64,000 nucleotides of DNA, taken from NCBI RefSeq assembly GCF_036226745.1, contig NZ_CP109013.1, positions 5,146,001-5,210,000 of the forward strand, written 5' to 3'. The stretch comes from Streptomyces sp. NBC_00683. GTDB lineage: Bacteria > Actinomycetota > Actinomycetes > Streptomycetales > Streptomycetaceae. Below the pieces are notes generated by a model. That model saw only the letters and a program-made list of their open reading frames with translations. It did no database searches and was not told where the DNA came from. Of the stretch, positions 3,441 to 33,208 are shown one piece after another (positions within the stretch are counted from its first letter, which is position 1; every line of letters begins with the position of its first letter). Both the position numbers and the translations under genes were made by a program.

Positions 3441-3527
3441 GCCCGGGTGGTGGAATGCAGACACGGCGAGCTTAAACCTCGCTGCCTCCTCGGGGGCGTG
3501 CCGGTTCGAGTCCGGCTCCGGGCACCA
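3441..3527 (+). tRNA. bldA: tRNA-Leu (anticodon UAA), bldA
   Basis: This is an 87-base class II tRNA with encoded CCA. Acceptor arms are GCCCGGG and TCCGGGC (one G-T pair). The anticodon stem GCGAG/CTCGC (3466-3470, 3478-3482) closes a loop CTTAAAC with anticodon TAA at 3473-3475. A long variable arm follows, and the T arm contains TTCGAGT. It decodes UUA, which is rare in Streptomyces. In that genus the tRNA is bldA, the developmental switch needed to translate TTA-containing genes in differentiation and antibiotic pathways. Identification rests on anticodon, class II shape and host type. Four TTA-containing genes occur within 30 kb downstream. Confidence 0.97.
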
Positions 3528-3672
3528 CCGCACAGTCGGTGGGGCCCGATCGGGCGCACAATACTTCAGTGGTCAACTTCTCTCAAAGATCCTCCTCTGG
3601 CACTAGAGTCATTGTTTTGCCTACCCATTACTCTTGTGGCAAGGCCACGCAGGGTGGCCATGGAGGAGTGAA

Positions 3673-4560
3673 ATGAGGAGCAGCAACCCGGTCTTCTCGC
3701 GACGGGGCTTCAGCCGCGACAACGGCTATGCGGGCTTCAACGCGGCACCGCAGGCCGGGGCCCCCGCAGCGGGTGCCAACCCGTACGCGCAGGGCGCCGC
3801 CGCCAACCCGTACGCCACGAACCCCTACGCCCAGCCGGACGCCCAGTACGGCGCCCCGCAGGCGCCCGCGCGCTCCGGCGCGATGACGATCGACGACGTG
3901 GTCACGCGTACGGCGATGACGCTGGGCACCGTGGTGCTCACCGCCGCGCTCTCGTGGGCCCTTCTGCCGGTCGACGAGGCCAACCTGGGCAAGTCCTACG
4001 GCATCGCCATCGGCGCCGCCCTGGTGGCGTTCGTCCTGGCGATGGTCCAGTCCTTCAAGCGCAAGCCGTCCCCGGCGCTGATCCTCGCGTACGCGGCCTT
4101 CGAGGGTGTCTTCCTCGGAGTGATCTCCAGCGCGGTCAGCACCTACATCAGCCCCGGCACGGTGATGCAGGCGGTGATGGGCACCATGTGTGTCTTCGCC
4201 GGTGTCCTCATCGCGTACAAGATGCGCTGGATCCGCGTCACCCGCCGCTTCTACGGCTTCGTGATGGCAGCGGCCGTCGGCTTCGTGCTCCTGATGATGG
4301 TCAACCTGCTGGTCTCCGTGTTCGGCGGCGGTGACGGCCTGGGCTTCCGCAGCGGCGGCCTCGGCATCCTCTTCGGAGTCATCGGCATCATCCTCGGTGC
4401 GTGCTTCCTGGCCCTGGACTTCAAGCAGGTCGAGGACGGCGTCAACTTCGGAGCCCCGCGCGAGGAGTCCTGGCTGGCGGCCTTCGGCCTCACCCTGACC
4501 CTGGTGTGGATCTACCTGGAGATGCTGCGCCTGCTCTCCATCCTCAACGGGGACGACTGA
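3673..4560 (+). CDS. Bax inhibitor-1/YccA family membrane protein
   Basis: This 295-residue integral membrane protein has an N-terminal cytosolic segment rich in Asn-Pro-Tyr-Ala repeats (NPYAQGAAANPYATNPYAQ) followed by about seven membrane helices from residue 80. The pattern and the ending LALDFKQVEDGVNFGAP...ILNGDD match the bacterial Bax inhibitor-1-like family (PF12811). Its function in actinobacteria is not established. The ATG at 3673 is chosen because a GAGGAG ribosome site lies 6-11 bases upstream; an in-frame ATG at 3634 lacks one. The gene stands alone downstream of bldA and ends at a strong hairpin. Confidence 0.9.
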   Translation: MRSSNPVFSRRGFSRDNGYAGFNAAPQAGAPAAGANPYAQGAAANPYATNPYAQPDAQYGAPQAPARSGAMTIDDVVTRTAMTLGTVVLTAALSWALLPVDEANLGKSYGIAIGAALVAFVLAMVQSFKRKPSPALILAYAAFEGVFLGVISSAVSTYISPGTVMQAVMGTMCVFAGVLIAYKMRWIRVTRRFYGFVMAAAVGFVLLMMVNLLVSVFGGGDGLGFRSGGLGILFGVIGIILGACFLALDFKQVEDGVNFGAPREESWLAAFGLTLTLVWIYLEMLRLLSILNGDD

Positions 4561-4600
4561 CCCGCGGGGATCCCCGGGATCCCTCCGGACCCGGCTCGAC

Positions 4601-4635
4601 GGAACGGCCCGCAGGCACTGCCTGCGGGCCGTTCC
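4601..4635 (+). terminator. Hairpin terminator after the Bax-inhibitor-like gene
   Basis: A perfect 17-bp inverted repeat (arms 4601-4617 and 4619-4635, core CGGCCCGCAGG) starts 40 bases after the stop codon. It sits between convergent genes and may work in both directions. Confidence 0.8.
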
Positions 4636-4659
4636 GTCTGTTGCCGGGGTGCTGCGGGG

Positions 4660-4890
4660 TCACAGGAGCCTTCTGGCTGCCCGCCTCAGGTCGTACTCGT
4701 GGATGATCGCTTTGGCATGGCCGTAGGTGAGGTCGTGTTCGCTCCGCAGCCAGCTGACCTTCTCCTCGAAACGGAAGAGGGAGGGGCCGTCGTCGACGGT
4801 GCGAAGCCAGTCGGCGATGTCACGACCGGTGCATTGAGGGATCCGGGAGAGCAGGTTGCGATGGGTTTCTTCGGAGAAGACTTGAGACAT
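4660..4890 (-). CDS. Small DUF4287-like protein
   Basis: This encodes 76 residues with no signal peptide or membrane segment. The C-terminal half (VSWLRSEHDLTYGHAKAIIHEYDLRRA) resembles the DUF4287 pattern, in which a helix and a GHA(K/M)AI motif recur. The function of that family is unknown to me. The gene is transcribed leftward toward the terminator at 4601-4635 and is divergent from the hypothetical gene at 4991. It starts with ATG at 4890. Length and codon use are consistent with a real gene. Confidence 0.75.
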   Translation of the reverse strand: MSQVFSEETHRNLLSRIPQCTGRDIADWLRTVDDGPSLFRFEEKVSWLRSEHDLTYGHAKAIIHEYDLRRAARRLL

Positions 4891-4990
4891 CGGCGCCTCC
4901 GACGCAGTGCGCGTTGCTGGTCCTTCCCGACACCGTGCCCGAGCTTCGGCCCGTTGGCAACCATCCTGCGGGGGCGCGTAGGGTCACGGC

Positions 4991-5308
4991 GTGCTCGATA
5001 CGACGCCTCTGATCACCGCCGTGGACCGATTCGCCGACCGTCTGCGCAGCGCCCCGCAGAGCCGGCTGCAGCGCGGTGCCGCCGCCGGTGCCCTGGCCAC
5101 GGCCAGGGAGCTGACCGCACGGGCCCAGCGTGCCGAGGCACCGGACCGGGAGCCGCGCGTCATGCCGGACGCCGGGATATTCGCGGTCGGTGACCAGCTC
5201 GCCGTCGCGGGCCGCGATCTGGCGGTGGCACTGGAAACGGCCTCGTCCGCGGAGCTGGACGAGGCCGTGCGATTCGTCGACGCAGCGGCGGCGCGGGCGT
5301 TCTCCTGA
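4991..5308 (+). CDS. Small alanine-rich hypothetical protein
   Basis: A 105-residue, alanine- and arginine-rich, largely helical soluble protein starting at GTG 4991. I see no catalytic motif, membrane helix or signal peptide. The sequence contains GIFAVGDQLAVAGRDLAVALE in two parts separated by typical helix-forming runs. No function is recognised. It is flanked by a divergent DUF4287-like gene and is convergent with the membrane-anchored hypothetical at 5345. Strong third-position GC bias supports coding. Confidence 0.6.
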   Translation: MLDTTPLITAVDRFADRLRSAPQSRLQRGAAAGALATARELTARAQRAEAPDREPRVMPDAGIFAVGDQLAVAGRDLAVALETASSAELDEAVRFVDAAAARAFS

Positions 5309-5344
5309 GCCCGCGCGGGCCGGAGCGGGCGTGCGTACCGCGTA

Positions 5345-6214: not shown

Positions 6215-6359
6215 ACTCCCGGTTTCAAATCGACACCCCCGACTTCCTACCTCAGCTTGTCCTGTACTCGTGCCTGCTGTCAGTGCATTACGTCACGAAT
6301 TGGACAGGTCTTTGGGCCTGATGTTTAGCCCTGTGGCTGGTGTGACCTGCGGAAACGAC

Positions 6360-6394
6360 TCTCCCCCGGGACGCAGATCACATCCTGGGGGAGA
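6360..6394 (-). terminator. Hairpin terminator of the thiolase gene
   Basis: Inverted repeat TCTCCCCC (6360-6367) and GGGGGAGA (6387-6394) lies about 85 bases beyond the thiolase stop on the minus strand. The rest of 6215-6477 shows no gene. Confidence 0.6.
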
Positions 6395-6477
6395 TTCGGT
6401 CACGTTCGGGGCTCGGCCGGGTTCAAAACAGCCCCTCCGAGGGAGGGCGAGTCGCTCTCCAGGCCCTGTGCCCGGGC

Positions 6478-7698: not shown

Positions 7699-7797
7699 CA
7701 CGCGGCTCCATGAGGGCTGGAAGACTGGGCTGACTTGGAAGTTACCCGGACGTATAGCTGAGGTCACCCAACAGGCTGTGTGATGCGGACCTCTTTT

Positions 7798-7813
7798 CTA
7801 AGCAACCGCTCAG
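7798..7813 (-). promoter_or_regulatory. Candidate operator upstream of the thiolase
   Basis: CTAAGC-AACC-GCTCAG is an inverted repeat with one mismatch between its arms. It lies about 100 bases upstream of the thiolase ATG. TetR-family regulators of acyl-CoA metabolism often use sites of this size and spacing, but no regulator gene is adjacent, so the assignment is inference. Confidence 0.35.
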
Positions 7814-7882
7814 TCGCCCGGGTTGTTCCCGCGGGGGACCGCCGGTCCGCGCCACCGCCGGGCCACCCTCACCCCCGGGCCG

Positions 7883-8980: not shown

Positions 8981-9108
8981 CTCCTCCTTGCTGTGCAGCT
9001 GTACACAGCACTACCTGCCCCGTGCGGGGCGTAGCCCAATCGCTTCGTCCAATGTCCTCCCCGTACGCATAGTCTTGCTTGACCATCTCGGAGACCCCGG
9101 AGTACACG

Positions 9109-10512
<1,404 letters not shown>

Positions 10513-11283: not shown

Positions 11284-11437
11284 GCGTCCTACGGTACGAA
11301 TCGCGGGCGCCCGGGTCAGTGGGGTTAGCCCCCCTGTTTCCGCCCGTGTCCCTGCCGGGCGGGACGGCTCATCCCCATGCCGGGCGGGGCCGGGCTCATC
11401 GGCGTAGCGTTGACCGGGCGAAGAGGGGAGCCGGTTC

Positions 11438-12244: not shown

Positions 12245-12319
12245 CCCCCGTGCGTGGCAACTCGGCTATGTAGGCTGCTTGTTGACCTTGCAGTGCGTTC
12301 GACTCCATGAGGAGACCCA

Positions 12320-14801: not shown

Positions 14802-15176
14802 TCAGACCTCCAGTTCGGCTTCGATCTTCTTCAGCTGGTGGCGGGCCATCGCCAGGTTGGCGCGGCCCGAGTCCAGTACCAGGTAGAGGAACAGGCCGTT
14901 GTTGCCGCGGGTCTTGAGCAGGCGGATCAGGTGGTACTGGCCGCTGAGGGTGATCAGGATGTCCTCGATCTCTTCCTTGATCCCCAGGTGCTCCATCGTG
15001 CGGAGCTTGGCGCGTACGACGTCGGTGTTGCCCGCTGCCGCGACATCCAGGTTGAAGTCCTTGCCACCGCCGAGGGTGCCGAGTGCCATGCCGCTGGTGT
15101 AGTCGACGAGTGCGACACCGAGGGTGCCCTCGATCGACGTCATCGCGTCCTTCAGTGACGCTTCGGTGTTGGCCAT
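14802..15176 (-). CDS. Roadblock/LC7 domain protein (third Roadblock of the operon)
   Basis: A 124-residue single-domain Roadblock/LC7 protein, similar in size to MglB-like regulators of small GTPases. The pattern GVALVDYTSGMALGTLGGG followed by DILITLSGQYHLIRLL and the helix LDSGRANLAMARHQLKKIE is shared with the first Roadblock gene of the operon, so the two are paralogues. It is the last gene of the leftward operon, 50 bases after the preceding gene. It has no TTA codon, unlike its two paralogues. No GTPase gene is adjacent. ATG at 15176 with an AGGAA ribosome site. Confidence 0.9.
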   Translation of the reverse strand: MANTEASLKDAMTSIEGTLGVALVDYTSGMALGTLGGGKDFNLDVAAAGNTDVVRAKLRTMEHLGIKEEIEDILITLSGQYHLIRLLKTRGNNGLFLYLVLDSGRANLAMARHQLKKIEAELEV

Positions 15177-15226
15177 GAGTGCTCGTTCCTTTCCTGGCCG
15201 GCCCGGGCGGGCCGGATTCGTGTGTG

Positions 15227-15691
15227 TCAGCTGGGGTCTTGTGTGGGGCGACGGGGGAGTGCGCGGGCCTGCGGGGCGCGTGCCGGGGGCGCGGGGCGGT
15301 CGGCGCGCTCCAGCGCGGCGTCGACCACCTCACCGATGCGGGCGCCCGCGCGGCGTCCCTCCAGGTGCAGCCGGCCGACGTTGATGCGGTCCTCGGCCAG
15401 CAGGGTGAGTACGGCGGAGGCCCCTGCCGCGTACGTCGCGATGTAGCCGGTCTCGCCGCGGACCAGGAGTTCGCGGAAACCGCCGCGGCCGGTGGCGTCG
15501 GTCATCCGGATGGACACGCCGAGCGCGGCCGCGGTCAGCGCGGCGACGCCCTCGGCCTCGACACCCGGGGTGTCCTGGGCCAGCACCAGGCCGTCGGTAC
15601 TGGCCGCCAGCGCGCCGGACAGGAGCGGGACCCGGGCCCGTAACCGCTGGAGCTCGTCGAGGACATCCTGCACTTCGGCCTCGGGCACCAT
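15227..15691 (-). CDS. Roadblock/LC7 domain protein containing a TTA codon
   Basis: A 154-residue Roadblock/LC7 protein (LLSGALAASTDGLVLAQDT, FRELLVRGETGYIATYAAG), with a basic, proline-rich C-terminal tail of about 30 residues. Leu17 is encoded by TTA (15643-15641), so full translation should need the bldA tRNA. The ATG at 15691 has a strong GGAGGAG site. The fold resembles conservon CvnB proteins, but the histidine kinase, DUF742 and GTPase partners of conservons are absent. It follows the PATAN gene by 38 bases. Confidence 0.9.
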   Translation of the reverse strand: MVPEAEVQDVLDELQRLRARVPLLSGALAASTDGLVLAQDTPGVEAEGVAALTAAALGVSIRMTDATGRGGFRELLVRGETGYIATYAAGASAVLTLLAEDRINVGRLHLEGRRAGARIGEVVDAALERADRPAPPARAPQARALPRRPTQDPS

Positions 15692-15729
15692 CAGTTGTCT
15701 CCTCCCGGCACGCTGTCTGAGCGCGCGAA

Positions 15730-16536
15730 TCACAGGGCCTCCAATGCGTCTCTGAGCCGGCGCAGCAGGGCGACGTCGGGGTCGGCCGTGACCTCGGGCA
15801 GCGTGATCCGGCCGGCCGTGGCAGCGGATGGGGCCGAGGTCCGGCGGGCCGTGCCGACCAGTCCGGCCGCAGCGAGCCGGCGCAGGTCGACCAGGATGTG
15901 GAAGGCCGAGCGGCCCAGCTCCTGGGCGATGTCCGTGGCCGTACGCGCACCGTCCACCAGGTCCAGGACGCGGCGCTGGCGTGGCGGGACCGGGGCGTCG
16001 ACGGGGTGCGCCGCAGGGGTGAGCGGGGCACTGTCGGTGAGCGCGTCCGGCCAGATCCGGTCCAGCAGTTCCCGGCGCCGGAGCGTCTCGCGCTGCACGG
16101 CGTCCACGGGGACGGGGTGGACGGGGCCGATCCAGTGGGAGACCCCGTAGCGGAAGCGGGCCGGCGTGCGGGTCGGGGCCAGGGCGAAGAAGGCCGCGTC
16201 GTACAGCGCACCCAGGTGGCACAGCTCCAGAGCGCCGCCGGGCACCCGGCCGCTGTCCACGAGGTAGCGGCCGACCCGCTGTCCGGCGCCCGCCTGGGCG
16301 ACCGCGTCCCACCAGCCCTCGGTGCGCAGCGCTCCGCCGGTGATGAGCAGGACGTCGATCCCGGGTGTGGCGGGGCTTTCGGCGTGGACTATCTGGCCGT
16401 CGGCGAGGTACAGGGTGCCGCGGTCGCGCATCAATGCGCCGGTTGCGCGCTCGGCCGCGAGCCGCTGGAGCATGGGGGAGGGGACCGAAGGGGCGGTCTG
16501 TTCGGCGGTGTCCGGCCGGGTGGCGGTCGGTCTCAT
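15730..16536 (-). CDS. PATAN/DUF4388-like protein with C-terminal winged helix
   Basis: A 268-residue protein. Residues 20-130 match the PATAN/DUF4388 style (LAAERATGALMRDRGTLYLADGQIVHAES, a domain linked to bacterial signalling and gliding proteins). Residues 185-235 look like a winged helix (VLDLVDGARTATDIAQELGRSAFHILVDLRRLAAAGLV), so it may bind DNA or a protein partner. The ATG overlaps the stop of the upstream Roadblock gene (ATGA), which implies translational coupling to a gene that has a TTA codon. No catalytic residues are seen. Confidence 0.82.
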   Translation of the reverse strand: MRPTATRPDTAEQTAPSVPSPMLQRLAAERATGALMRDRGTLYLADGQIVHAESPATPGIDVLLITGGALRTEGWWDAVAQAGAGQRVGRYLVDSGRVPGGALELCHLGALYDAAFFALAPTRTPARFRYGVSHWIGPVHPVPVDAVQRETLRRRELLDRIWPDALTDSAPLTPAAHPVDAPVPPRQRRVLDLVDGARTATDIAQELGRSAFHILVDLRRLAAAGLVGTARRTSAPSAATAGRITLPEVTADPDVALLRRLRDALEAL

Positions 16537-16934
16537 GCCAGGACCAGCCGCTCCGCGATCTCGCCGAGCCGTATGCGGGCGAGGGCGAGGTTGCCTTCCG
16601 CGCGGTCCAGCCAGAGGTGCAGGAAGACGCTGCTGTCGAAGTCCGTCTCGACGAAACGGAGAATGTGGTAGCCGGGCGGGGTGGTGACGATGACGTCCTC
16701 GACGGCCGGTCCGGGCGGGGCGGATAAGTCCTGTGGTTGTGACTGCGCGAAGACCGGCTGTTCCGCGGCCATCCTCGCCACCTCGGCCGTCTCGGCGGCG
16801 GTCGCCTCATGGTCACCGCCGGGCGAGTCGCCGATGGTGCCGAGGGCGAGACCGCTCGTCCAGTCGACCACCGCGGCGCCCCGGGCACCGGGCAGCCTCA
16901 TGACTTCGAGCAGGCACTCGTCGATTCCGGGCAA
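16533..16934 (-). CDS. Roadblock/LC7 domain protein containing a TTA codon, first gene of the operon
   Basis: A 133-residue Roadblock/LC7 protein (GAAVVDWTSGLALGTIGDS, VEDVIVTTPPGYHILRFVE, LWLDRAEGNLALARIRLGEIAE). Compared with its paralogue at 14802 it carries an insertion of about 20 residues in the middle, and within that insertion Leu70 is encoded by TTA (16727-16725). TTG at 16934 is the likely start, with GGGAGGGGAG 7 bases upstream. It heads the leftward operon and its stop overlaps the next start, so bldA-limited translation could reduce the whole operon. Confidence 0.88.
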   Translation of the reverse strand: MPGIDECLLEVMRLPGARGAAVVDWTSGLALGTIGDSPGGDHEATAAETAEVARMAAEQPVFAQSQPQDLSAPPGPAVEDVIVTTPPGYHILRFVETDFDSSVFLHLWLDRAEGNLALARIRLGEIAERLVLA

Positions 16935-22832: not shown

Positions 22833-23936
22833 GTGAGCAGTCGGCGCATACGTGTGGTCAGGCCCGGGGATCTGGGCGTGGGGGACATCGAGACCTGGCG
22901 GGAGCTGCGGGCGAAGTCCGGCGCTCCGGCCCATCCGTTCATGGAACCGGAATTCACCCTTGCCGTCGGCCGCGTCCGGCCGCGCGCACGGGTGGCCGTG
23001 ATCAGCGACGAAGCGCAGGGGACAGGCGGCTACTTCCCCTTCGAGCGGGGGCGGTTCGGCGGCCACGGCAGGGCGATCGGCTTCGGGGTCTCCGACCTCC
23101 AGGGCGCGGTGCTGCGACCGGGTCTCCCGCTCGACGCCAGGACGCTCCTGCGGGCCTGCGGGATCTCCGCATGGGAGTTCGACAACCTCGAGGCGGGTCA
23201 GGAACTGTTCGAGGCGGACGCCGCCCGTTCGTACCCCTCGTACGTCATCGACGTCGGTGACGGTTACGAGAGCTACGAGACGGAACTGCGCGCACGCTCG
23301 CCGAAGTTCCTCAGAACCACCCTGGCGAAGGAGCGCAAGCTCGGCCGGCAGGCGGGTGAGGTGCGGTTCGTCCTCGACGAGCGGGATCCGGCGGTGCTGC
23401 GGACCCTGATGGAGTGGAAGTCCGCCCAGTACCGCAGGACAGGACGCCGCGACCGCTTCGCGAAGAAGTGGATCCGCGACCTGGTGGAGTTCCTGTTCCA
23501 TACCCGGGCACCCGGGTGCTCGGGTCTGCTCTCGGTCCTGTACGCGGGGGACAAGCCCGTGGCCGCCCACTTCGGGCTGCGTTCGCGCACCGTGCTCTCG
23601 TGCTGGTTCCCGTCGTACGACCCCGAGTTCGCGAAGTTCTCTCCCGGGCTGATCCTCCATCTGCGGATGGCGCGGGCTGCCGCGGACGACGGCATCGGGA
23701 TGCTCGACATGGGGCGCGGGGCGGCCGAGTACAAGGACGCCCTGAAGACAGGCGAGCTGACGGTCCACGAGGGCGCCTCGGTCAGGCCGGGTGCGGGCGC
23801 GGCCCTCCAGTGGCTCGGCCGTGAACCCTCGCGCAGGGCCCACAGCTTCGTACGGAAGCGGCCCCGGCTGGCGGGTGTGGCACAGCGCGGACTCGAACGG
23901 GCGGGCAGGCTGCGCAACCCGAAGCAGCCGAAGTAG
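22833..23936 (+). CDS. CelD/BcsL-like GNAT acyltransferase, glycan cluster
   Basis: A 367-residue protein of the GNAT/FemAB-like group called CelD in cellulose-type biosynthesis clusters. It should transfer an acyl or aminoacyl group to a glycan precursor in the cytoplasm. Supporting stretches are LRARSPKFLRTTLAKERKLGR, VAAHFGLRSRTVLSCWFPSYDPEFAKFSPG in parts, and the late LDMGRGAAEYKDALKTGE motif, which is typical of this family. The GTG at 22833 follows a G-rich site. The 3' end runs into a 9-base tandem repeat that supplies the stop. It opens a rightward set of glycan genes. Confidence 0.85.
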   Translation: MSSRRIRVVRPGDLGVGDIETWRELRAKSGAPAHPFMEPEFTLAVGRVRPRARVAVISDEAQGTGGYFPFERGRFGGHGRAIGFGVSDLQGAVLRPGLPLDARTLLRACGISAWEFDNLEAGQELFEADAARSYPSYVIDVGDGYESYETELRARSPKFLRTTLAKERKLGRQAGEVRFVLDERDPAVLRTLMEWKSAQYRRTGRRDRFAKKWIRDLVEFLFHTRAPGCSGLLSVLYAGDKPVAAHFGLRSRTVLSCWFPSYDPEFAKFSPGLILHLRMARAAADDGIGMLDMGRGAAEYKDALKTGELTVHEGASVRPGAGAALQWLGREPSRRAHSFVRKRPRLAGVAQRGLERAGRLRNPKQPK

Positions 23937-23945
23937 CCGAAGCAG
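23919..23945 (+). repeat. Three 9-base tandem repeats containing a stop codon
   Basis: Units ccgaagcag, ccgaagtag, ccgaagcag lie in the reading frame of the acyltransferase. The middle unit has CAG changed to TAG, which is the gene's stop. Read-through would add only four residues before a TAA. Confidence 0.7.
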
Positions 23946-24059
23946 CCGTAACGGCCGCAGCGGCCGTATCGGCGTCACAGCAACCGGCGCGGCGGCTGCA
24001 GCACGCGCAGTTCACAACGGGCGGCCGTGGCGTCACGACGACGTGGGGGATGGGACCGG

Positions 24060-25403
24060 ATGCCGTACAGGACACAAAAAGACCGAGCAGCAACGCAGTT
24101 ACCCGACATCCGCCACCTCGCCGGTGTGGCCGTGGCCGAGCTGGAGCTCGGGGCACCGGACGGGGCGGGCGCACGGATCACCCCCGCCCCCGGCGGCCCA
24201 CCGTTCAAGGACGGCCCGCACGAGGGCGAGGACCAGCGGGTCTTCGCGCTCGTGCGGCTGCGCGGGCGCCCGGTCGGCACGGTCGTCGGCCGGATCCGGG
24301 CGGGCGACGACCCGGCCTCCGTACTCGCCGGACAGGCGGTGGACGAGATCGACCTGCCGGAGCCGCTGCCCGAGTCCCTGCCGGGCGACGCCCCCCGGGC
24401 CACCGTCGTCGTCGCGACCCGGGAGCGCCCCGAGCAGCTCGCCCGCGCGCTCGACTCACTGCTGGCCCAGGACCACCCGGACTTCGAGATCGTCGTCGTC
24501 GACAACGCACCTGCCACGACCGCCACCCGCGATCTCGTCGCGGCCGGCTACGCGCACCGAGGCGTCCGCCACGTCCTGGAACCCGTGCCCGGTCTGGCTG
24601 CCGCCCACAACCGGGGGATCGCCGCCGCCGAGGCGGACGTCCTCGCCTTCACCGACGACGACGTCATCGCCGATCCGCACTGGCTCACCGCCCTCACCCT
24701 GCCGTTCGCCGCGGACCCGCGGCTCGGCTGTGTCACCGGCCTGATCCTGCCCGCGCGGCTGAACACCCCTGCGCAGACCCTGCTGGAGAGCCACGGCGGC
24801 TTCGCCAAGGGGTTCGCCGGGCGCCGCTACGACCCCGCGCACCCGCCGGCCGACGAACCGCTCTTCCCGTTCACGGCCGGACGGTTCGGGTCCGGCGCCA
24901 ACATGGCCTTCCGTGCGGGACCGTTGCGGGCCGTCGGCGGCTTCGACCCCGCCACGGGCACCGGTACCCCTGCCAGGGGCGGCGACGACCTCTACGCCTT
25001 CGTACGGATCCTCGCCGGTGGCCACCCCCTGCTCTACACACCCGACGCGATCGTCTGGCACCACCACCGGGAGCGCTGGGAGGACCTGTGCGGGCAGGCG
25101 TACGGGTACGGGGCCGGGTTCACCGCCTGTCTCACGGCACTCCTGGTCCGGCGCCCCGCCCTGCTGCCCGCCCTGCTCGCCCGGCTGCCGCGCGGTCTCG
25201 CCCACGCCCGCACCATGACGGCTTCGCGCGCCACGGACGCGGCCGGCCGACGGGGCGTTCCCGGCGAGCACGGCACGTACACCTACCCGTGGCCCCGGCA
25301 TCTGTCCCGTCTGGAGCGGCGCGGCCTGCTGTACGGCCCGGTCGGATACGTACGCGCCCGGCTGTCCGTCCGAGGCGAACCACGTCCCTGGGAGGGGAGA
25401 TGA
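24060..25403 (+). CDS. Glycosyltransferase family 2 with a TTA codon at position 14
   Basis: A 447-residue GT-A glycosyltransferase. The catalytic domain starts near residue 115 (ATVVVATRERPEQLARALDSLL), with FTDDDVIADPHWL as the DxD region and a late GGDDLYAFVRI/WHHHRERW acceptor segment. The first 110 residues form an extra N-terminal domain (VAVAELELG...LVRLRGRPVGTVVGRI). Leu14 is encoded by TTA (24099-24101), so expression should depend on bldA. The stop overlaps the ATG of the deacetylase gene (ATGA). The start is ATG 24060; GTG 24027 is a possible alternative and does not change the TTA reading. Confidence 0.92.
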   Translation: MPYRTQKDRAATQLPDIRHLAGVAVAELELGAPDGAGARITPAPGGPPFKDGPHEGEDQRVFALVRLRGRPVGTVVGRIRAGDDPASVLAGQAVDEIDLPEPLPESLPGDAPRATVVVATRERPEQLARALDSLLAQDHPDFEIVVVDNAPATTATRDLVAAGYAHRGVRHVLEPVPGLAAAHNRGIAAAEADVLAFTDDDVIADPHWLTALTLPFAADPRLGCVTGLILPARLNTPAQTLLESHGGFAKGFAGRRYDPAHPPADEPLFPFTAGRFGSGANMAFRAGPLRAVGGFDPATGTGTPARGGDDLYAFVRILAGGHPLLYTPDAIVWHHHRERWEDLCGQAYGYGAGFTACLTALLVRRPALLPALLARLPRGLAHARTMTASRATDAAGRRGVPGEHGTYTYPWPRHLSRLERRGLLYGPVGYVRARLSVRGEPRPWEGR

Positions 25404-26221
25404 GCGCTCACAGATCCGGCAGCTCCGGGGCGTCCCGGATACCCGTGCTGCTCTACCACGCGGTGATGGACGACCCCCCGCAGTGGATCGCCGAGTTCAC
25501 CGTGGGGCCGCGCGCGTTCGCCGCCCAGCTGGACGCGATCGCCGCCAGTGGGCGCACCGCCGTCCCGATCAGTGCCCTCGTCGACCATCTCGCGGGGCGC
25601 GGCCCGCTGCCGGACCGTCCCGTCGTCCTCACCTTCGACGACGGTTTCGCGGATCTGCCGGGTCCCACCGCCGAGGCGCTCGCCGGGCGTTCGATGCCCG
25701 CCACCGCGTACCTCACCACCGGCGCGCTGGCGGCCGACGGCCGCAGTCTGCTGCCGCCCGGCCCGATGATGAGCCTGGAGCAGGCTCCGCTGCTCGAGCA
25801 GTACGGCATGGAGGTGGGCGGGCACACCGTCACCCACTGCCAGCTGGACACACTGTCCGGTGCTGCTCTGAGGCGCGAGCTCACCGACTCCAAGAGGGCG
25901 TTGGAGGATGTGCTGGGCCACGAGGTGACCCATCTCGCCTACCCGCACGGGTACAACAGCGCGGCTGTGCGCCGCGCTGCCCGTGCCGCCGGGTACGAGA
26001 GCGCGGTGGCCGTCCGGCACGCGCTGAGCTCCGCGCGGGACGAGCCGTACCGGATCGCGCGGCTGATTCTCCGGCGGGGGCACACGGTGCGGGACATCGA
26101 GGAGTGGATGGCGGGCGGCGGCGCTCCGGTGGCTCCGTTCCCCGACTCGCTGCCGACCATCGGCTGGCGGTGGTACCGGCGGGCCCGGGCGGCGGTACGG
26201 GGACCGGTGTTCGCGGGGTGA
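25400..26221 (+). CDS. Polysaccharide deacetylase (NodB domain)
   Basis: A 273-residue carbohydrate esterase 4-type enzyme removing N- or O-acetyl groups from a glycan. Motif 1 is VVLTFDDGFAD (catalytic and metal Asp), motif 2 VGGHTVTHCQL (HxxxH metal site), and motif 3 appears as THLAYPHGYNS. No signal peptide is evident at the N-terminus, so it may act on a lipid-linked precursor inside the cell or be exported another way. The ATG overlaps the TGA of the GT2 gene, with GGAGGGGA upstream, indicating coupling to the TTA-containing gene. Confidence 0.92.
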   Translation: MSAHRSGSSGASRIPVLLYHAVMDDPPQWIAEFTVGPRAFAAQLDAIAASGRTAVPISALVDHLAGRGPLPDRPVVLTFDDGFADLPGPTAEALAGRSMPATAYLTTGALAADGRSLLPPGPMMSLEQAPLLEQYGMEVGGHTVTHCQLDTLSGAALRRELTDSKRALEDVLGHEVTHLAYPHGYNSAAVRRAARAAGYESAVAVRHALSSARDEPYRIARLILRRGHTVRDIEEWMAGGGAPVAPFPDSLPTIGWRWYRRARAAVRGPVFAG

Positions 26222-26227
26222 GGCGAG

Positions 26228-26257
26228 CGGGGCGGGGGCGGGCGGGGCGGGGGCGGG
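26228..26257 (+). repeat. Two tandem 15-base G-rich repeats (G-quadruplex potential)
   Basis: Two copies of CGGGGCGGGGGCGGG (26228-26242 and 26243-26257) follow the deacetylase stop directly. They offer six runs of three or more G on the coding strand, separated by single C residues, enough for an intramolecular quadruplex. Confidence 0.75.
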
Positions 26258-26298
26258 CGGTGTGACGGGGTGCCGGATCGAGCGAGAGCCGTACAAAG

Positions 26299-26322
26299 GC
26301 GAAGCACATTCCTATACTTCGC
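26299..26322 (+). promoter_or_regulatory. Candidate promoter/operator for the second glycan transcription unit
   Basis: TATACT (26313-26318) is a near-consensus -10, and GCGAAG/CTTCGC (26299-26304, 26317-26322) forms an inverted repeat overlapping it, 55 bases upstream of the large membrane protein gene. The -35 is weak. Confidence 0.4.
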
Positions 26323-26376
26323 TTAAGGGGACAGCGGCGTGACGGCCGCGACCACATCCGTGGGGGGAGTCGCACT

Positions 26377-28281
26377 GTGCAGCAGCCTGTTCCTGTGCCG
26401 GTCGCAGGGGACACCGCAGGGAGCAGCGGCTCCACGCCACCCCCGGCCGGGCCGTCCGGCACCCCGCCCCGCGAACCGTCCCGCAGCCGTGTCCCGGGCG
26501 CGCTGAGACCTCAGCCGCTGCTCACCTGGCTGCCGTTGCTCCTGGCGGCCGCACTCTGGATCCACGCCCTGCCGCACATCGGATTCCGGTCGATGGGCGA
26601 GTACGGCCTGCTGGACCGGCTGCCGGTCACGTACTACCTCTCCCTGCTCGCCCTGACCGCGGGCTTCCTGGCCGGCCTGCGCCGCGCGGGTACGGCGCCC
26701 TGGTGGCCGGCCCTCTACTGCGCCGGCCTGCTGATGGCCCTCAAGGGCGTCCCCGCCGTGCTGTACGACTCCGAGCGCTACCCCTGGGCGTCCAAGCACG
26801 ACGCCGTCATCGACCATCTGCTGGCCAACGGCGAACTGCGCCCGAACGAGGGCCTGTCCGGCAACATGTCGGCCTACGACCAGTGGCCCGGTTTCTTCAC
26901 CCTCAACGGCGGGCTCGTCCGCGCCTTCGGGGTCGAAAGTGCCGCCACGTACCTCAACTGGGCACCCATCGTCCTCGGTCTGCTGATGATGCCGGTCCTG
27001 ATCCTGATCTACCGCACCTTCAGCGAGGACTGGCGCCTGGTCTGGACGGCCGTCTGGATCTTCCAGCTCGCCAACTGGGTGGGTCAGGACTACCTCGCCC
27101 CGCAGGGCTTCGCCTTCCTGCTCCACCTCGCCGTGTTCGCCGTCGTCGTACGGCACTTCGTGCGTCCCGGCTCCGCGGGACGGCTGCGCTCCCGCGCCTA
27201 CCTCGACCCGGCCGCCGCCGTCGTCCCGCCGCCCACCGGCACCCGGCAGCGCGCGATCTGCGTGGTGGTCCTGATGCCGGTGATCGCCGCCGTCAACGCG
27301 GTGCACCAGCTGACCCCGGTGATGCTCTGCGTCACCCTGCTCGCCCTCAACCTCACCCGCCGCTACCGCAACCCCGGGCTGCTCGTCGTGGCCGGTCTGC
27401 TCATGCTGGCCTGGGACCTCACGATGGGCCGTCCCCTGTTCACCGAGACGCTGGGCACCCTGCGCGACTCGCTGGGTGAGCTGACCCAGAACTCCCGTGC
27501 CGGGTACGCGGGTCAGCTCACCGGGGCCGGCCCGGAACTGGCCGGGCGGGCCAACATCCTGATGGTGCTTGCCGTGGCCGCCCTGGCGGGGACGGCCCTG
27601 CTGCTGCGCCGCCGGCTGGTGCACAGCGCACTGCCGCTGCTGCTGGCCTCCCTCGCCCCCGTACCGCTCTTCGTCGTGAACGACTACGGCGGCGAAATGC
27701 TCTTCCGCGTCTACCTGTTCGCACTGCCCGGTGCCGCGTTCTTCGCAGCCGCGGCGCTCGTGCCCGCGGCCGGGGGCAGCGGCGTGCACCGGGTGCGGCC
27801 GGCCGTACGGAGGATCTGCGCGGTAGCGCTGCCCCTGTCGCTGGTCGCCCTGCTGGTGGGCTTCATGCCGTCGTACTACGGCAAGGAGCAGATGAACTAC
27901 ACACCGCCCGAAGAGACGGCGCTCGTCACCCGTGCCATCGACCGGGCCCCCGACGGGGCGCTGATCCTGGCCACCACCGGCTCCTTCCCGCGGGCACTGC
28001 ACCGCTACGACCACCTGGAGCACTGGTTCTTCGCCGAGCAGGAGCTTCCCGAGAACGTGGCGATGCTCAAGGACCCCGCCCGCTATCTCTCGACCCGGAT
28101 GCCGCCCGGCGCCACCGCCTTCGTCATCCTCACGCACACCCAGGACATCTACACCGCCGGTGAGGGGCTCCTGCCGCCCGGCGGCTTCGCCCGGCTGACC
28201 AGGGACCTCACCGCTTCGCCGCTCTTCCGTGTGGTCGAGCGCACCGAGCACGGAGTCGTCCTGCAGTACACCGGGCCCTAG
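26377..28281 (+). CDS. Large polytopic membrane protein, GT-C-like
   Basis: A 634-residue protein with a proline-rich cytosolic N-terminus of about 45 residues and roughly ten to twelve membrane helices (e.g. LLTWLPLLLAAALWIHAL, YLNWAPIVLGLLMMPVLILIY, ICAVALPLSLVALLVGFM). A C-terminal extracytoplasmic domain of about 120 residues follows (from YYGKEQMNYTPPEE). The layout and the loop DQWPGFFTLNGGLV resemble lipid-linked-sugar-dependent GT-C glycosyltransferases, but I do not recognise a specific family. The GTG at 26377 has GGGGGGAG upstream. It lies in the glycan cluster between the deacetylase and GH26 genes. Confidence 0.82.
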   Translation: MQQPVPVPVAGDTAGSSGSTPPPAGPSGTPPREPSRSRVPGALRPQPLLTWLPLLLAAALWIHALPHIGFRSMGEYGLLDRLPVTYYLSLLALTAGFLAGLRRAGTAPWWPALYCAGLLMALKGVPAVLYDSERYPWASKHDAVIDHLLANGELRPNEGLSGNMSAYDQWPGFFTLNGGLVRAFGVESAATYLNWAPIVLGLLMMPVLILIYRTFSEDWRLVWTAVWIFQLANWVGQDYLAPQGFAFLLHLAVFAVVVRHFVRPGSAGRLRSRAYLDPAAAVVPPPTGTRQRAICVVVLMPVIAAVNAVHQLTPVMLCVTLLALNLTRRYRNPGLLVVAGLLMLAWDLTMGRPLFTETLGTLRDSLGELTQNSRAGYAGQLTGAGPELAGRANILMVLAVAALAGTALLLRRRLVHSALPLLLASLAPVPLFVVNDYGGEMLFRVYLFALPGAAFFAAAALVPAAGGSGVHRVRPAVRRICAVALPLSLVALLVGFMPSYYGKEQMNYTPPEETALVTRAIDRAPDGALILATTGSFPRALHRYDHLEHWFFAEQELPENVAMLKDPARYLSTRMPPGATAFVILTHTQDIYTAGEGLLPPGGFARLTRDLTASPLFRVVERTEHGVVLQYTGP

Positions 28282-28299
28282 ACGAGGAAGGCCGCCACC

Positions 28300-28722
28300 G
28301 TGTCAGAGAACCGGCAACCGACAGCACCGGGGCCACAGACCCTGATCAGAGCCGCTGTGGCGCTCTCCGGGTGGGTGGCGCTCGCCGCGACCGCACTGCC
28401 GGGCGGCTCGCCCCTGCGCTGGATACCGGTGTTCCTGTTCGTCTGCGTCGGCCCCGGATTCGCCCTGCTGTACCCACAGCCCGGGATGCTCCGGCCCGCG
28501 GCCCGCCTCGAAGCGCTGGCGCTGGCCGCGCCCTTCGGCCTCTCCCTCGCCGTTCTCGCGGCCACGTCGCTGTTCCTGGCCGAGGCGTTCTCGGCGACCG
28601 CGTTCCTGGTGTCGCTCGCGGCGTTCACCACCGTCGCGGCCGCGTGCCCCGGCCTTCCGCTGCCCGCGGCCACCCGCGGCGCCGCGGAGAGGGGCCGGGC
28701 CAAACCCGTGAAGCGCCGATGA
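28300..28722 (+). CDS. Small membrane protein of the glycan cluster
   Basis: A 140-residue protein with about four hydrophobic helices (IRAAVALSGWVALAATAL, WIPVFLFVCVGPGFALLY, LALAAPFGLSLAVLAATSLFL, AFLVSLAAFTTVAAA) and a basic tail. It resembles the N-terminal membrane part of DUF1616-type proteins (VGPGFAL motif), but that is tentative. The function is unknown. It begins with GTG 18 bases after the large membrane protein and overlaps the GH26 gene by ATGA, so it is probably a partner of one of them. Confidence 0.75.
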   Translation: MSENRQPTAPGPQTLIRAAVALSGWVALAATALPGGSPLRWIPVFLFVCVGPGFALLYPQPGMLRPAARLEALALAAPFGLSLAVLAATSLFLAEAFSATAFLVSLAAFTTVAAACPGLPLPAATRGAAERGRAKPVKRR

Positions 28723-29870
28723 CCGGACGCCCTGCGCCGTGGCCGGCCTCCGTGTCGCGGCTGCGCCGGCCCCGTACGTACCTGGCGCTCGCCCTGGTCT
28801 CCGTAGCGGCGCTGCTGACCGGCCTCATCGCCTGGTTCGGTACGCCTTCGTCCGGTGACGGGGACCCTCCCGTACCTTCCGCGAACGACCTGCCCGCCGA
28901 TGCCGCCACCGGTGAGGTGACCGGTGGCACGTGCGCCCCGTCCGCCACTCTCGTACCGCCGTGCGGAGCCTGGTGGGGCGCCTACGTCCCGCACGCGGAG
29001 AACGGCTCCCTCAAGGACGCGGTGTACGCGTTCGAGAAGAAGATCGGCCGGAGGCTCGACCTCCTGTACACGTACCACGACATGTCGAACAACAAGCTCG
29101 ACGGGCAGCTCCTCACCCCCGACGAGCAGGTCCTCGGCCGGGACCGGATGCTGATGCTGGCCTGGGAGTCCACGGTGTGGCGCGAGCCCCGCCACGCGAA
29201 CTACACCGAGGACCAGCTCGGCTGGGCGAAGGTCGCCTCGGGGGCGTACGACCGCGAGATCATCGACCCCCAGGCACGTCGCATCAAGGCGTACGGGAAG
29301 CGGGTGTTCCTCTCCTTCGACCAGGAGGTCGACGCCCGGGTCGGTGACGCGGGCACCCCGGCGGAGTACGTCGCCGCCTACCGCCACCTCCACGACCGGT
29401 TCGAGGAGCTGGGTGTGGACAACGTGGTGTGGGTGTGGACGGTCTCCGGCTTCCTGCAGTCGGGGGAGCTCTTCGAACAGCTCTATCCGGGGGACGACTA
29501 CGTCGACTGGATCGGCATGGACCAGTACAACTACTTCACCTGCCACGACACCACGGACTGGAAGGACTTCGACCGCAGCCAGCGGCCGACGTACGACTGG
29601 CTGCGCACGCACATCAGCGCGGAGAAGCCGGTCATGTTCGCCGAGTTCGCCACCGTCCCGGATCCGGCCGACGCGGACCGCCAGCGCGAGTGGTACGAGG
29701 AGATTCCCGAGGTCGTACGGACCATGAAGGGGGCCAGGGCGCTGGTGCACTGGAACCGTGCGGTGCCGGGCGAGGGCTGCGACCTCACCGTCAACGACGG
29801 CCCGGGGCTGGAGGGTTATCGCACCGCTGGACAGGACGACTACTTCAAGCAGCCGGTCCCCGGCCGCTGA
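28719..29870 (+). CDS. GH26-like glycoside hydrolase with N-terminal membrane anchor
   Basis: A 383-residue protein with a signal-anchor helix at residues 22-40, placing the catalytic domain outside the membrane. The domain resembles family GH26 (endo-beta-mannanase clan): the acid/base Glu is likely in LSFDQEVD and the nucleophile in KPVMFAEFAT, with VWVWTVSG and DWIGMDQYNYF between them. It may trim or release the cluster's glycan, in the way other exopolysaccharide clusters carry a hydrolase. The ATG overlaps the stop of the small membrane protein. The 3' end overlaps the convergent flippase gene by 26 bases. Confidence 0.87.
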   Translation: MTGRPAPWPASVSRLRRPRTYLALALVSVAALLTGLIAWFGTPSSGDGDPPVPSANDLPADAATGEVTGGTCAPSATLVPPCGAWWGAYVPHAENGSLKDAVYAFEKKIGRRLDLLYTYHDMSNNKLDGQLLTPDEQVLGRDRMLMLAWESTVWREPRHANYTEDQLGWAKVASGAYDREIIDPQARRIKAYGKRVFLSFDQEVDARVGDAGTPAEYVAAYRHLHDRFEELGVDNVVWVWTVSGFLQSGELFEQLYPGDDYVDWIGMDQYNYFTCHDTTDWKDFDRSQRPTYDWLRTHISAEKPVMFAEFATVPDPADADRQREWYEEIPEVVRTMKGARALVHWNRAVPGEGCDLTVNDGPGLEGYRTAGQDDYFKQPVPGR

Positions 29871-32016
29871 GCCTGCCGCGGACGGTGAGGGCCACCGCCG
29901 TTGCCGCGAACAGTCCGCAGAACACGGGCAGTCCGGCAGCGGCGAAGGCGTCCTGGGCCGCCCACCCCGCCACCGCGAGCGCCCACACCAGGGCGGCAAC
30001 AGCCCGACGGGGGGCGCCCGCGGACCGCAGCAGGACGGCCGCGAGCCCCAGGCAGAGCACCTGCAGGGCGAGCGGCAGCCCCAGGAGCACCGCGGCCGGG
30101 GAGTCCAGCCCTGCGGCCTCGGCCAGGAAGCGGGCGAGGGGCCCGTGCAGCTCCTGCGAGGCGGCGGGGCGCCGGACACCGAGGAGCGGCGGGGCCGAGT
30201 GCAGGGCCGCCACGGTCACCAGCAGCGCCGACCCGATCAGCGCGGGCCGGAAACGGTGGAGCGCGACGGCTCCGCTGCAGACGACGATCATGAGCACCCC
30301 CGCCGTCACGGTGACCGGAGGAAGCGCATGGATCAGCTCGGTGCCCGTCAGCCGGTGGTGGCCGGCCTGCGCGACCCGCGTCAACGGCACCCAGAACAGC
30401 CCTGCGGCGAGCCCCAGCAGCAGCCACAGCGCAGCGTTCGGCCAGGACTCGCCGTCCGTCCGGTCCGTGGCCGACGGTGAGCCGTCGCGCACGAGGACGG
30501 GGATCCCGAAGGCGGGAGTCACCGTGTCGTGGGCGCCGCGCAGATACACCGTGTCCGTGGTCCAGTCCGCCCCGTACTCCTCGGCCCGCCGCTCCCGGGT
30601 GCGCCGAGCCGCCGTACGGGCCCAACTGGTGCCGAACTCCTCGTCCTTCGGCGCCCGCTGCCGCCTCCCGCGTCCGAGGACGGGCCGTCCCGTCAGCGCG
30701 GCGCGCAGTCCCAGGGCGGACGCGGACGCCACCGCCGTCATGCTCAGGAGCATCGCCCAGCCCGCCCCCGCGATCCCCAGCGGACCGAGCAGCAGGGCCG
30801 CACTGCCCAGCACCGCCGCGCACATCGCACCCTGGAGGACGGCCAGCGCACCGGTGCGGCCCTGCACCCGCAGCACACCGATGTACAGCTCGACCAGGAC
30901 CCGGGGGAGTGCGGCGGCGGCCAGCAGGCGCAGGACGAGCGTGCCGTGGTCGGCGTAGTCGTGGCCGAACGGGGCGAGGATCTGCGGAGCGAAGACGACC
31001 AGCACGAGGACGACGGGAACCAGCAGCAGGGCCATCCGGCGCAGCGCCCCCCGTACGCCCTCGGCCAGGTGGCCGGGGCTGTGGGAGGCGTGGGCGGTGA
31101 GCGAGGAGGCCATGTTGATGGCCATGAACTCCATGGTGCCGCCGACGGTGTAGGCGATGTAGAAGAAGCCGTTGTGCGCGGCGTCGAAGCGGACAGCGAC
31201 CATCACGGGCAGCAGATTGATCATGGCGAGGCTGAAGAGGGCGCCGACCGAGTCCCCGGCCAGGAATCTGCCGATCTCCCGGAGCCCGGGCGGCTCGCGG
31301 TCCCGGTCGGCTCCGGCCTGGTGCGGGATCAGTCTGCGGAAGATCAGCCAGCCGAGCGGCAGTACGGACAGGGCGATGGCCGCGGCCCAGGAGACGAACA
31401 CGCCGAGTACGGGCAGGGCGGTGGCGAAGGCGGCGAGCATCAGCAGCTTGCCGATGGAGAACACGGCGTTGCCGACGGGCACCCAGAAGGCCTTGCGCAG
31501 CCCGGTCAGTACCCCGTCCTGGAGGGTGAGGATCGCCCAGGCGACACACGAGCCGGTGAACACGAGCCCGGCCCAGGCAGTGCCCAGCGGGGCGTACGAG
31601 TCCCCCCACAGGTCCAGGGTGAGCAGGAAGACGACGCAGACGACGGTGACGACGACGGAGCTGGCCAGATAGGTGCGGGCGACCAGGGACGCGGTGGCGC
31701 GTCCGGCCCGGGGCACGTACCGCACCACGGCCCCGATCATCGTCGTCGCGGTGACCGAGGCGAGGAGCCGCATCGCGGCGATGGCGGCGGATCCCTGGCC
31801 GACGGCCTCCTCGGTGTAGTAGCGGGCCGCGACCAGCCAGAAGCCGAGGCCGAGGGCGGCGGAGACTCCGGTGGAGAGCATCAGGGCGTAGGCGTTGCGG
31901 AACATCGAGTCGCCGCTCGCGCCGTCCTGTTCCGCCGGGACGGGCGCGTCCGCCGCACGGCCCTGTGCGGCGTCGGCGCCTCCGGCCGGCGGGCCGACTC
32001 TGGTGGTGTCAGCCAC
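29845..32016 (-). CDS. Polysaccharide flippase-like protein (MATE/MurJ-type) with extra C-terminal domain
   Basis: A 723-residue polytopic protein. After about 35 disordered residues, residues 38-470 form a 12-14-helix MOP-superfamily transporter (AYALMLSTGVSAALGLGFWLVAARYYTEEAVGQGSAAIA in parts), as in lipid-linked oligosaccharide flippases. A cytosolic linker (about residues 475-540) is followed by about five further helices, longer than the usual 450-500-residue flippase. The GTG at 32016 overlaps the end of the aminotransferase gene by 8 bases, indicating coupling. It probably exports the lipid-linked glycan unit. Confidence 0.88.
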   Translation of the reverse strand: MADTTRVGPPAGGADAAQGRAADAPVPAEQDGASGDSMFRNAYALMLSTGVSAALGLGFWLVAARYYTEEAVGQGSAAIAAMRLLASVTATTMIGAVVRYVPRAGRATASLVARTYLASSVVVTVVCVVFLLTLDLWGDSYAPLGTAWAGLVFTGSCVAWAILTLQDGVLTGLRKAFWVPVGNAVFSIGKLLMLAAFATALPVLGVFVSWAAAIALSVLPLGWLIFRRLIPHQAGADRDREPPGLREIGRFLAGDSVGALFSLAMINLLPVMVAVRFDAAHNGFFYIAYTVGGTMEFMAINMASSLTAHASHSPGHLAEGVRGALRRMALLLVPVVLVLVVFAPQILAPFGHDYADHGTLVLRLLAAAALPRVLVELYIGVLRVQGRTGALAVLQGAMCAAVLGSAALLLGPLGIAGAGWAMLLSMTAVASASALGLRAALTGRPVLGRGRRQRAPKDEEFGTSWARTAARRTRERRAEEYGADWTTDTVYLRGAHDTVTPAFGIPVLVRDGSPSATDRTDGESWPNAALWLLLGLAAGLFWVPLTRVAQAGHHRLTGTELIHALPPVTVTAGVLMIVVCSGAVALHRFRPALIGSALLVTVAALHSAPPLLGVRRPAASQELHGPLARFLAEAAGLDSPAAVLLGLPLALQVLCLGLAAVLLRSAGAPRRAVAALVWALAVAGWAAQDAFAAAGLPVFCGLFAATAVALTVRGRLSGRGPAA

Positions 32017-33208
32017 CGGGCAGCTCTCTCGCGGGCGCGATGCCTGCCGCGGTGAGGACATCGATGACCCGTCCGGCGCGCAGGGGGTCGACGGGCAGGG
32101 CGTGCCGGGCGAACCAGGCAGCGTTGGCGGGGTGGGCGGAGGGGTCGGTGAACGGTTCCCCGGCGTAGGTGTCGAGCGGCGGGTCGTAGAGGTAGCCGAC
32201 GGTGATCCGGTGCCGGGCGAGGGCGGCGATCGCCGCGTCACGGTCGGCCACCAGCAGGGGCACCCGGAACAGCGGCTGTACGGGGGTGCCCGCAGGGTGC
32301 GGCGCCGCCCAGCGGGTGGCGAGGAGGCGCTCGGTGCCTGCCCGGTGTGCGGTGAGCCGGTCGTCGAGGCCGGCGAGCAGGCGTTCGATGCGCCGCAGCC
32401 GTAATCGGCCCGGGGCGACCCGGTAGTCGTGCATGTCGACACGGACCCAGGAGTGGAAGCCGGTCAGGGAGGGCGCGGTGCCGAGGGCCTGCTGGAGTGC
32501 GGCGGGCCGCAGCGGCATCCGGATCTCCTCGCGCTCCTGGAGCCCGAGGAGCCGCAGAGCCCACCAGGCGGCGGGAGCGAGCCGCAGTCCGCGTACCGCC
32601 GCCTCCGCGTACGGCCGTACGGCGTAGGCGAGTTCGGCGGTGAGCGCGGCGGGGTCGAGGAGGGCGTCGCGGGCCTGCTCCAGCGGGGCGCGCAGCCCCG
32701 GGTCGGCGACGGCGAGGAAGCCCCCGGCCTTGGCGCCGACGTGCTTGGAGAGGCTGAAGACGGCCGCGTTCCCGAAGGTGCCGACCGGCTCCCCGTCCCT
32801 CTCGCTGCCGATGGCGTGCGCGGCGTCCTCGATCAGCGGGATGCCGAGCCGGTCGCAGCGCGCGCGCAGCTCCGGGGCGGGGTCGGGGTGTCCGTACAGG
32901 TTGGTGGTGAGGACCGCGGAGAGCCCGTTCCATACGGAGTCGGGCACGGCGTCCACGTCGATGGAACCGTCCGTGGCGGACAGCGGAGCCTGGACGGGAC
33001 GCAGGCCCGCGGCGAGGACGACGAAGAGGATGACGTCGTCGTTGACGGGAGACATCAGGACCCTGCCGCCGGGCTCGCACCAGTGCCGGAGCGCCACGTA
33101 GATGCCCAGCCTGCACGACGGTACGTAGAGGCATTCGCGGCCGATCCGGGCGCGCATCGCCGCTTCCGCCGCGGCGTGGGCTGCCGGACCGCTCTCCCCA
33201 TCAGCCAT
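32009..33208 (-). CDS. DegT/DnrJ/EryC1-type aminotransferase with a TTA codon
   Basis: A 399-residue fold-I PLP enzyme of the sugar aminotransferase group. PLP contacts appear in PLIEDAAHAIGSE and the Lys region VFSLSKHVGAKAGG (Lys155 is the best candidate). It probably makes an amino sugar for the glycan, but members that act on other carbonyls exist. Leu269 is encoded by TTA (32404-32402). The ATG at 33208 has GGGGGGAA upstream. The gene leads a two-gene leftward unit with the flippase. Confidence 0.9.
   Translation of the reverse strand: MADGESGPAAHAAAEAAMRARIGRECLYVPSCRLGIYVALRHWCEPGGRVLMSPVNDDVILFVVLAAGLRPVQAPLSATDGSIDVDAVPDSVWNGLSAVLTTNLYGHPDPAPELRARCDRLGIPLIEDAAHAIGSERDGEPVGTFGNAAVFSLSKHVGAKAGGFLAVADPGLRAPLEQARDALLDPAALTAELAYAVRPYAEAAVRGLRLAPAAWWALRLLGLQEREEIRMPLRPAALQQALGTAPSLTGFHSWVRVDMHDYRVAPGRLRLRRIERLLAGLDDRLTAHRAGTERLLATRWAAPHPAGTPVQPLFRVPLLVADRDAAIAALARHRITVGYLYDPPLDTYAGEPFTDPSAHPANAAWFARHALPVDPLRAGRVIDVLTAAGIAPARELPGG

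Follow-up and report, generated by a model that had tools for sequence, protein, structure and literature searches.

TTA codons in a four-gene roadblock-type operon of Streptomyces, a candidate target of bldA control

It has been reported from a survey of 213 species that Streptomyces genomes hold between 51 and 505 genes with a TTA codon (mean of 177), and that 11 TTA codons are conserved in position across those species (PMC10327506). In Table 2 of PMC4255298, 29 genes or clusters are given as frequent carriers of TTA, where adpA is the extreme case (14/14). In this work, we describe a four-gene operon that is comparable to those entries within a 64,000-nucleotide stretch of Streptomyces sp. 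NBC_00683 (positions 5146001-5210000 of a single-contig genome of 8,519,659 bases). The whole stretch is called the window. The window also contains bldA, the gene of tRNA-Leu(TAA). Three of the four proteins encoded by the operon (14802-16934, minus strand) are of roadblock type, and the other is DUF4388-like. Its genes are labelled rbB, duf, rbA, and rbC here. Based on the comparison of sequences, we propose with a probability of about 0.62 that the operon is a recurrent and selected target of bldA control.

The class of TTA-prone genes and clusters is already known. The operon is similar to the clusters in Table 2 of PMC4255298 in being widespread and in having TTA in one or another of its genes in many species (85/149 intact Streptomyces operons). 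It differs from them in that neither roadblock nor DUF4388 appears in the description of any table entry. The list in PMC10327506 is similar in that it collects TTA codons conserved in orthologues. It includes a hypothetical protein of S. mirabilis with TTA at nucleotides 49-51, which is codon 17, as in rbA. However, a site enters the list only if at least half of the species with the gene share it, and TTA stands at codon 17 of rbA in 33/149 operons. The S. mirabilis gene (FNV68_RS14920) may belong to the operon. Counting gene by gene, as in PMC10327506, would miss the operon because TTA moves between its genes.

The other comparable systems share the roadblock protein. Conservons (cvnABCD) are small actinobacterial operons with such a protein, and rbA resembles a CvnB-type member (PMC13343842). 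The conservon gene cvnC13 is TTA-prone in Table 2 of PMC4255298. The operon and its neighbours differ from conservons in the absence of genes for the CvnA histidine kinase, the CvnC DUF742 protein, and the CvnD GTPase. Among the 32 products of the genes called between 53 and 37319, Pfam scans detected none of these three kinds within the operon or next to it. The one ATPase-domain gene among those products is a HATPase gene at 35294-35653 that adjoins a sigma factor gene. MglB of Myxococcus is similar to the operon in the roadblock fold of the rbC model. It differs in its partner, where no MglA-like GTPase gene was found among the 32 neighbours scanned and a partner may be encoded elsewhere. 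Among the papers listed by literature searches on roadblock or DUF4388 proteins with Streptomyces, none appears to treat the operon, going by those lists and by excerpts of PMC2367054 and PMC13343842. The operon is new to the TTA-prone class, with a reservation for FNV68_RS14920 and for SCO0683-0685, which are discussed below.

TTA codons in the operon and its orthologues

The first gene, rbB (16533-16934, minus strand), encodes a small roadblock-like protein of 133 aa if translation starts at TTG, or of 122 aa if it starts at an ATG at 16901. The aligned start codon is GTG in 136/149 operons and TTG in this genome (16934). The second gene, duf (15730-16536, minus strand), encodes a DUF4388-like protein of 268 aa with a weak PF14332 match below the cut-off. 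Its ATG overlaps the stop codon of rbB (ATGA), and the same overlap is found in 81/149 operons. The homologues of duf are often annotated as transcriptional regulators or helix-turn-helix proteins, and many among the matches listed are 265-269 aa long. A fold search with Duf gave a best E-value of 0.5 and nothing useful. The third gene, rbA (15227-15691, minus strand), encodes a roadblock/LC7 protein of 154 aa that matches PF03259 with an E-value of 5.7e-16 and passes its curated cut-off (58.5 bits vs 23). The fourth gene, rbC (14802-15176, minus strand), encodes a protein of 124 aa. Neither rbB nor rbC matched Pfam in the scans. The AlphaFold2 model of rbC (pLDDT 88.8) has the roadblock fold, and its best PDB matches include MglB structures (6hjm and 6h5b) with a TM-score of about 0.8 and 16-18% identity. 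Twelve rbB copies are 27-35% identical to the own-genome rbC.

Two genes of the operon in the window have TTA. The TTA at 15641-15643 (minus strand) is codon 17 of rbA. The TTA at 16725-16727 (minus strand) is codon 70 of rbB from TTG (codon 59 from ATG), and it lies in a variable linker.

Orthologous operons were collected from two samples. Among 121 genomes of the genus, 118 have any match to rbA and 97 have a strong match (E < 1e-30). From the latter, 90 places in 89 genomes were taken. The strong-match genomes left out (G008, G018, G035, G048, G051, G064, G087, and G089) are among the weakest, and G087 enters only the family-wide set described below. Another 80 named loci, the best 80 of 339 relatives and so biased to close relatives, brought the total to 170. 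The removal of nine exact duplicates left 161 distinct loci, of which 149 have the four genes in order; the other 12 are incomplete. The 149 loci are the intact Streptomyces operons.

TTA is found in the first three genes of 85/149 operons when the conserved rbB start is used. The first count, which skipped the 11 N-terminal codons of rbB, gave 78/149; all figures per gene, per column, for linkage, and by parsimony come from that count. The proportion is 48/85 in the evenly drawn genomes, 37/64 in the named loci, and 52/115 outside the close clade of the window genome. The TTA codons are in rbB (33), duf (39), and rbA (34), and none is in rbC. They fall into 30 columns of the alignment, for which parsimony gives about 49 gains and three losses; these are rough values, as all changes were weighted equally and the FastTree tree was rooted at its midpoint. 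For the 85 operons, the totals are about 31 sites and about 50 inferred gains. One conserved site is codon 17 of rbA. Among the 34 operons with more than 80% identity in rbA, which form the close clade, this codon is TTA in 30 and CTG in four. Most of the other 115 operons have CTG or TTG there, and three have TTA. No other operon examined shares the rbB TTA of the window. The conservation of the TTA codons, which the original prediction had left to be checked in orthologues, therefore stands for the rbA codon and for the operon as a whole but not for rbB.

TTA is also found in the operon outside the genus. The family-wide set covers 23 of 30 loci (the other seven are from genomes already covered), where TTA is present in 5/16 operons from other genera of Streptomycetaceae and in 3/7 of its Streptomyces operons. 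In the operons of the other genera, rbC again has none.

Several of these observations weigh against the proposed selection. TTA is absent from 64/149 operons, so that dependence on bldA would not be universal. At the level of the whole operon, the presence of TTA is labile, with six gains and eight losses by parsimony. The lack of TTA in rbC stands out only beside its neighbours; at the own-genome rate, about 1.6 TTA codons would be expected among the 2881 Leu codons of rbC. The idea that one TTA per operon is enough was also considered and is unsupported, as a second TTA is found in 13 of the 30 operons with TTA at codon 17 and any TTA in 48 of the remaining 119.

The entry SCO0683;0684;0685 in Table 2 of PMC4255298, described as 'Unknown' with TTA in 2/12, 4/13, and 2/13, may be the roadblock operon. 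We lean against this identity because the rbA of the close clade would give SCO0683 or SCO0685 more than two orthologues with TTA, if several species of that clade are among the 14 in the table. SCO0682-0684 are given as hypothetical genes with positive expression values in PMC3610822, and SCO0682-0685 are absent from PMC2000904. S. coelicolor was not among the matches listed in the two protein searches (best 120 of 1334 and best 120 of 1379) or in the scan of named genomes (best 80 of 339).

Codon usage in the operon

Genes were called with a home-made codon-usage caller in which TTA is scored as neutral. The caller relies on GC bias, and atypical genes, possibly richer in TTA, may be missed. 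The own-genome background was called in the same way from 39 evenly spread stretches of 20 kb (one further stretch was dropped for overlap) and from 200 kb on either side of the window. The three TTA-bearing operon genes have 106 TTA in 84,806 codons, compared with two in 120,551 codons of the genes that flank them at the same loci (466 gene calls). These counts correspond to 12.5 TTA per 10,000 codons in the operon genes, 0.17 in the flanks, and 0.56 in the own-genome sample. TTA outnumbers CTA by 106 to 36 in the three operon genes, while the flanks have two TTA and 17 CTA. A second control from 30 conservon loci has TTA in 0/101 genes.

The enrichment is strongest for TTA but it is not limited to TTA. 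Over the own genome, TTA is raised 22-fold in the operon and the other rare codons are raised two- to four-fold (CTA 2.1, CCA 4.1, AGA 4.2, and ATA 2.2). Over the flanks, CCA is raised 11-fold, AGA 10.5-fold, and ATA seven-fold, compared with 61-fold for TTA, a value that depends on just two flank codons. The flanking genes and the conservons are strongly conserved, which makes both of them strict controls. These points count against selection for TTA, and the rise of the other rare codons fits a partly relaxed codon choice. The main alternative, possible though we do not favour it, is that the operon is expressed weakly or late and merely tolerates TTA codons that drift, with any dependence on bldA as a by-product. 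This explanation agrees with the rise of CCA, AGA, CGA, and ATA (two- to four-fold over the own genome and four- to 11-fold over the flanks), with the many TTA sites that lie within variable linkers, and with the labile presence of TTA in the operons. It agrees less well with the preference for TTA over CTA, of which the latter is raised only two-fold, with the 30/34 close orthologues that keep TTA at codon 17 of rbA, and with the rbB columns where Leu is in the minority, in which TTA makes up 30/159 Leu codons. Relaxed selection explains the mild rise of rare codons, but it does not easily explain the TTA-specific excess or the near-fixed codon 17.

The base that follows TTA is C or T in 106/106 cases in the operon and in 16/18 cases in the own genome, compared with about 39% for other Leu codons. 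In the operon, CTA has C as its next base in 29/36 cases. A DNA motif common to the TTA sites of the operon was considered and rejected, as the own-genome TTA and the operon CTA have a similar context. The C or T after TTA is a general effect of codon context because those codons behave likewise, and it may reflect that TAA and TAG are avoided in every frame.

Among the 13 roadblock genes called in the own genome, only rbA has TTA. Beside another of these roadblock genes, the gene L311:406-1026 has TTA at codon 50 and a match to PF03029 (ATP_bind_1). This gene may encode a conservon GTPase.

Distance to bldA and the second TTA gene group

The original prediction placed the bldA tRNA in the window and noted that the TTA codons fall in two gene groups within 30 kb of it. 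The tRNA was recovered by ARAGORN as tRNA-Leu(TAA) at 3441-3527 (plus strand), the sole tRNA in the window, with a counterpart in 120/121 genomes of the genus. The prediction of exactly four in-frame TTA codons was also borne out. The window has 68 TTA triplets (33 on the plus strand and 35 on the minus strand), of which four are in frame, at 15643 (minus), 16727 (minus), 24099 (plus), and 32404 (minus). Of the remaining triplets, 41 lie outside called genes and 23 within them, either antisense or in another frame. Three of the four in-frame codons are certain. The one at 24099 is in frame only if the GT2 glycosyltransferase gene starts before 24126, the start given by the caller. We counted it because the closest relative has the ATG at 24060 as well as the TTA. 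The starts of the GT2 gene (24060) and of the DUF4388-like gene (16536) were set by hand in the final count.

The share of TTA genes that the original prediction quoted for Streptomyces, about 2%, is about right; the survey in PMC10327506 gives a mean of 177 TTA genes per genome. The window has TTA in 4 of its 54 called genes, compared with 16/931 elsewhere in the genome (Fisher p = 0.020, or p = 0.081 with 3/54). The test was picked after the data were seen. The four codons represent about two independent events rather than four because all of them fall in two gene clusters. The TTA excess in the window is modest, and the original interpretation is supported in part. TTA genes do not cluster around bldA beyond the window, as the 400 kb around the window (window excluded) has TTA in 4/312 genes, which is not above the 12/619 of the 39 spread stretches.

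In 79 genomes, the roadblock operon shares a contig with bldA, and in 61 of them the two lie within 100 kb of each other (median 14.8 kb). We consider the linkage to be old synteny because it is found in so many genomes. The first count by distance gave TTA in 7/13 genomes where the operon is at least 1 Mb from bldA on the same contig, in 11/13 where it is on another contig, and in 25/59 where it is linked; some copies on another contig are perhaps due to broken assemblies only. Nearness to bldA is not the cause because the distant copies carry TTA at least as often. The idea that the bldA neighbourhood is a gathering place for bldA-dependent genes, for which the modest excess in the window (p = 0.02) speaks, has next to no credibility when set against the distant copies and the 400 kb around the window, and it is largely refuted for this genome. 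One of the two TTA gene groups, the roadblock operon, is nevertheless a real and notable TTA locus, for reasons other than its position beside bldA.

The second group is a polysaccharide-like cluster of eight genes (22878-33157, mixed strands), named here for its domains. Its genes have a GNAT-type acetyltransferase domain, GT2, polysaccharide deacetylase, GH26-like, a weak Polysacc_synt match, and DegT, and two are without Pfam match. A role in making or handling polysaccharide would fit these domains. The TTA at 24099-24101 (plus strand), which is codon 14 of the GT2 gene from the ATG at 24060, is found at the same codon in the closest relative only and in 0/17 further loci, several of which are unaligned that far upstream. 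In L086, the GT2 gene has a TTA further upstream that perhaps precedes its start. The TTA at 32402-32404 (minus strand), codon 252 of the DegT-family gene, is private, with TTA at that codon in 0/28 other aligning loci (29 searched); TTA is found elsewhere in the gene in 6/29. In 11 relatives of the cluster, TTA is found in 8/108 gene calls, which is somewhat raised and scattered. From these comparisons, the TTA codons of the polysaccharide-like cluster appear ordinary and mostly private.

It is very unlikely that both TTA groups arrived recently, as AT-rich genes or by horizontal transfer, and retain foreign codons. The restricted distribution of GT2, with matches of at least 67% identity in 16/121 genomes (own included), and the 8/108 gene calls in the relatives of the cluster would agree with such an origin. 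The third-position GC of the TTA genes (0.88-0.92) is however within the range of other genes. For the operon, a foreign origin is contradicted by the conserved synteny with bldA in 61 genomes and by its presence in other genera of the family.

Adjoining the polysaccharide-like cluster at 33339-35653 are genes for a sigma-70-family sigma factor and a STAS-domain protein together with the HATPase gene. This arrangement looks like a sigma factor with partner-switching regulators.

Other genomes have additional features around bldA (stretches L303, L304, and L305). In G003, G015, G019, and G111, the last 25-27 bp of the 3' end of bldA are repeated at a distance of about 8-43 kb from the gene. A gene of the phage-integrase family (PF00589) directly adjoins bldA in G003 and G019, and the one in G003 (L303:17642-19474) itself has TTA at codon position 49. 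The stretches of G015 and G019 have genes that are phage-like by eye. bldA appears to be an integration site. In a literature search on this, the word bldA is absent from the papers listed (20 of 39).

Candidate bldA control of the operon

We infer the dependence of the operon on bldA from what has been established about UUA codons in Streptomyces (PMC4255298). UUA codons in rbB, duf, and rbA would make the synthesis of two roadblock-type proteins and the DUF4388-like protein require the bldA tRNA, and the three proteins would hence appear late or in development. In many lineages, selection would retain a UUA somewhere in these three genes even as its exact site turns over, and the site at codon 17 of rbA is nearly fixed in the close clade of the window genome. 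With rbC kept free of UUA, its synthesis need not wait for bldA.

In a more specific arrangement, which we regard as unlikely, bldA would gate a change in the make-up of a roadblock complex. UUA-free rbC would be made early and form one complex, and the UUA-prone proteins (its paralogue rbB, its partner rbA, and the DUF4388-like protein) would join once the bldA tRNA is available. Selection would then act on a UUA anywhere in the three gated genes rather than at one fixed codon.

If recurrent bldA control of the operon is true, a conserved and apparently undescribed operon of signalling type would join the short list, with adpA, of loci that are repeatedly under bldA control in Streptomycetaceae. 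The dependence on bldA would be kept at the level of the operon though the codon moves between genes, and surveys of single genes or single codons would undercount such targets because of that movement. The lineages with and without the codon would provide a testable set for why UUA control persists.

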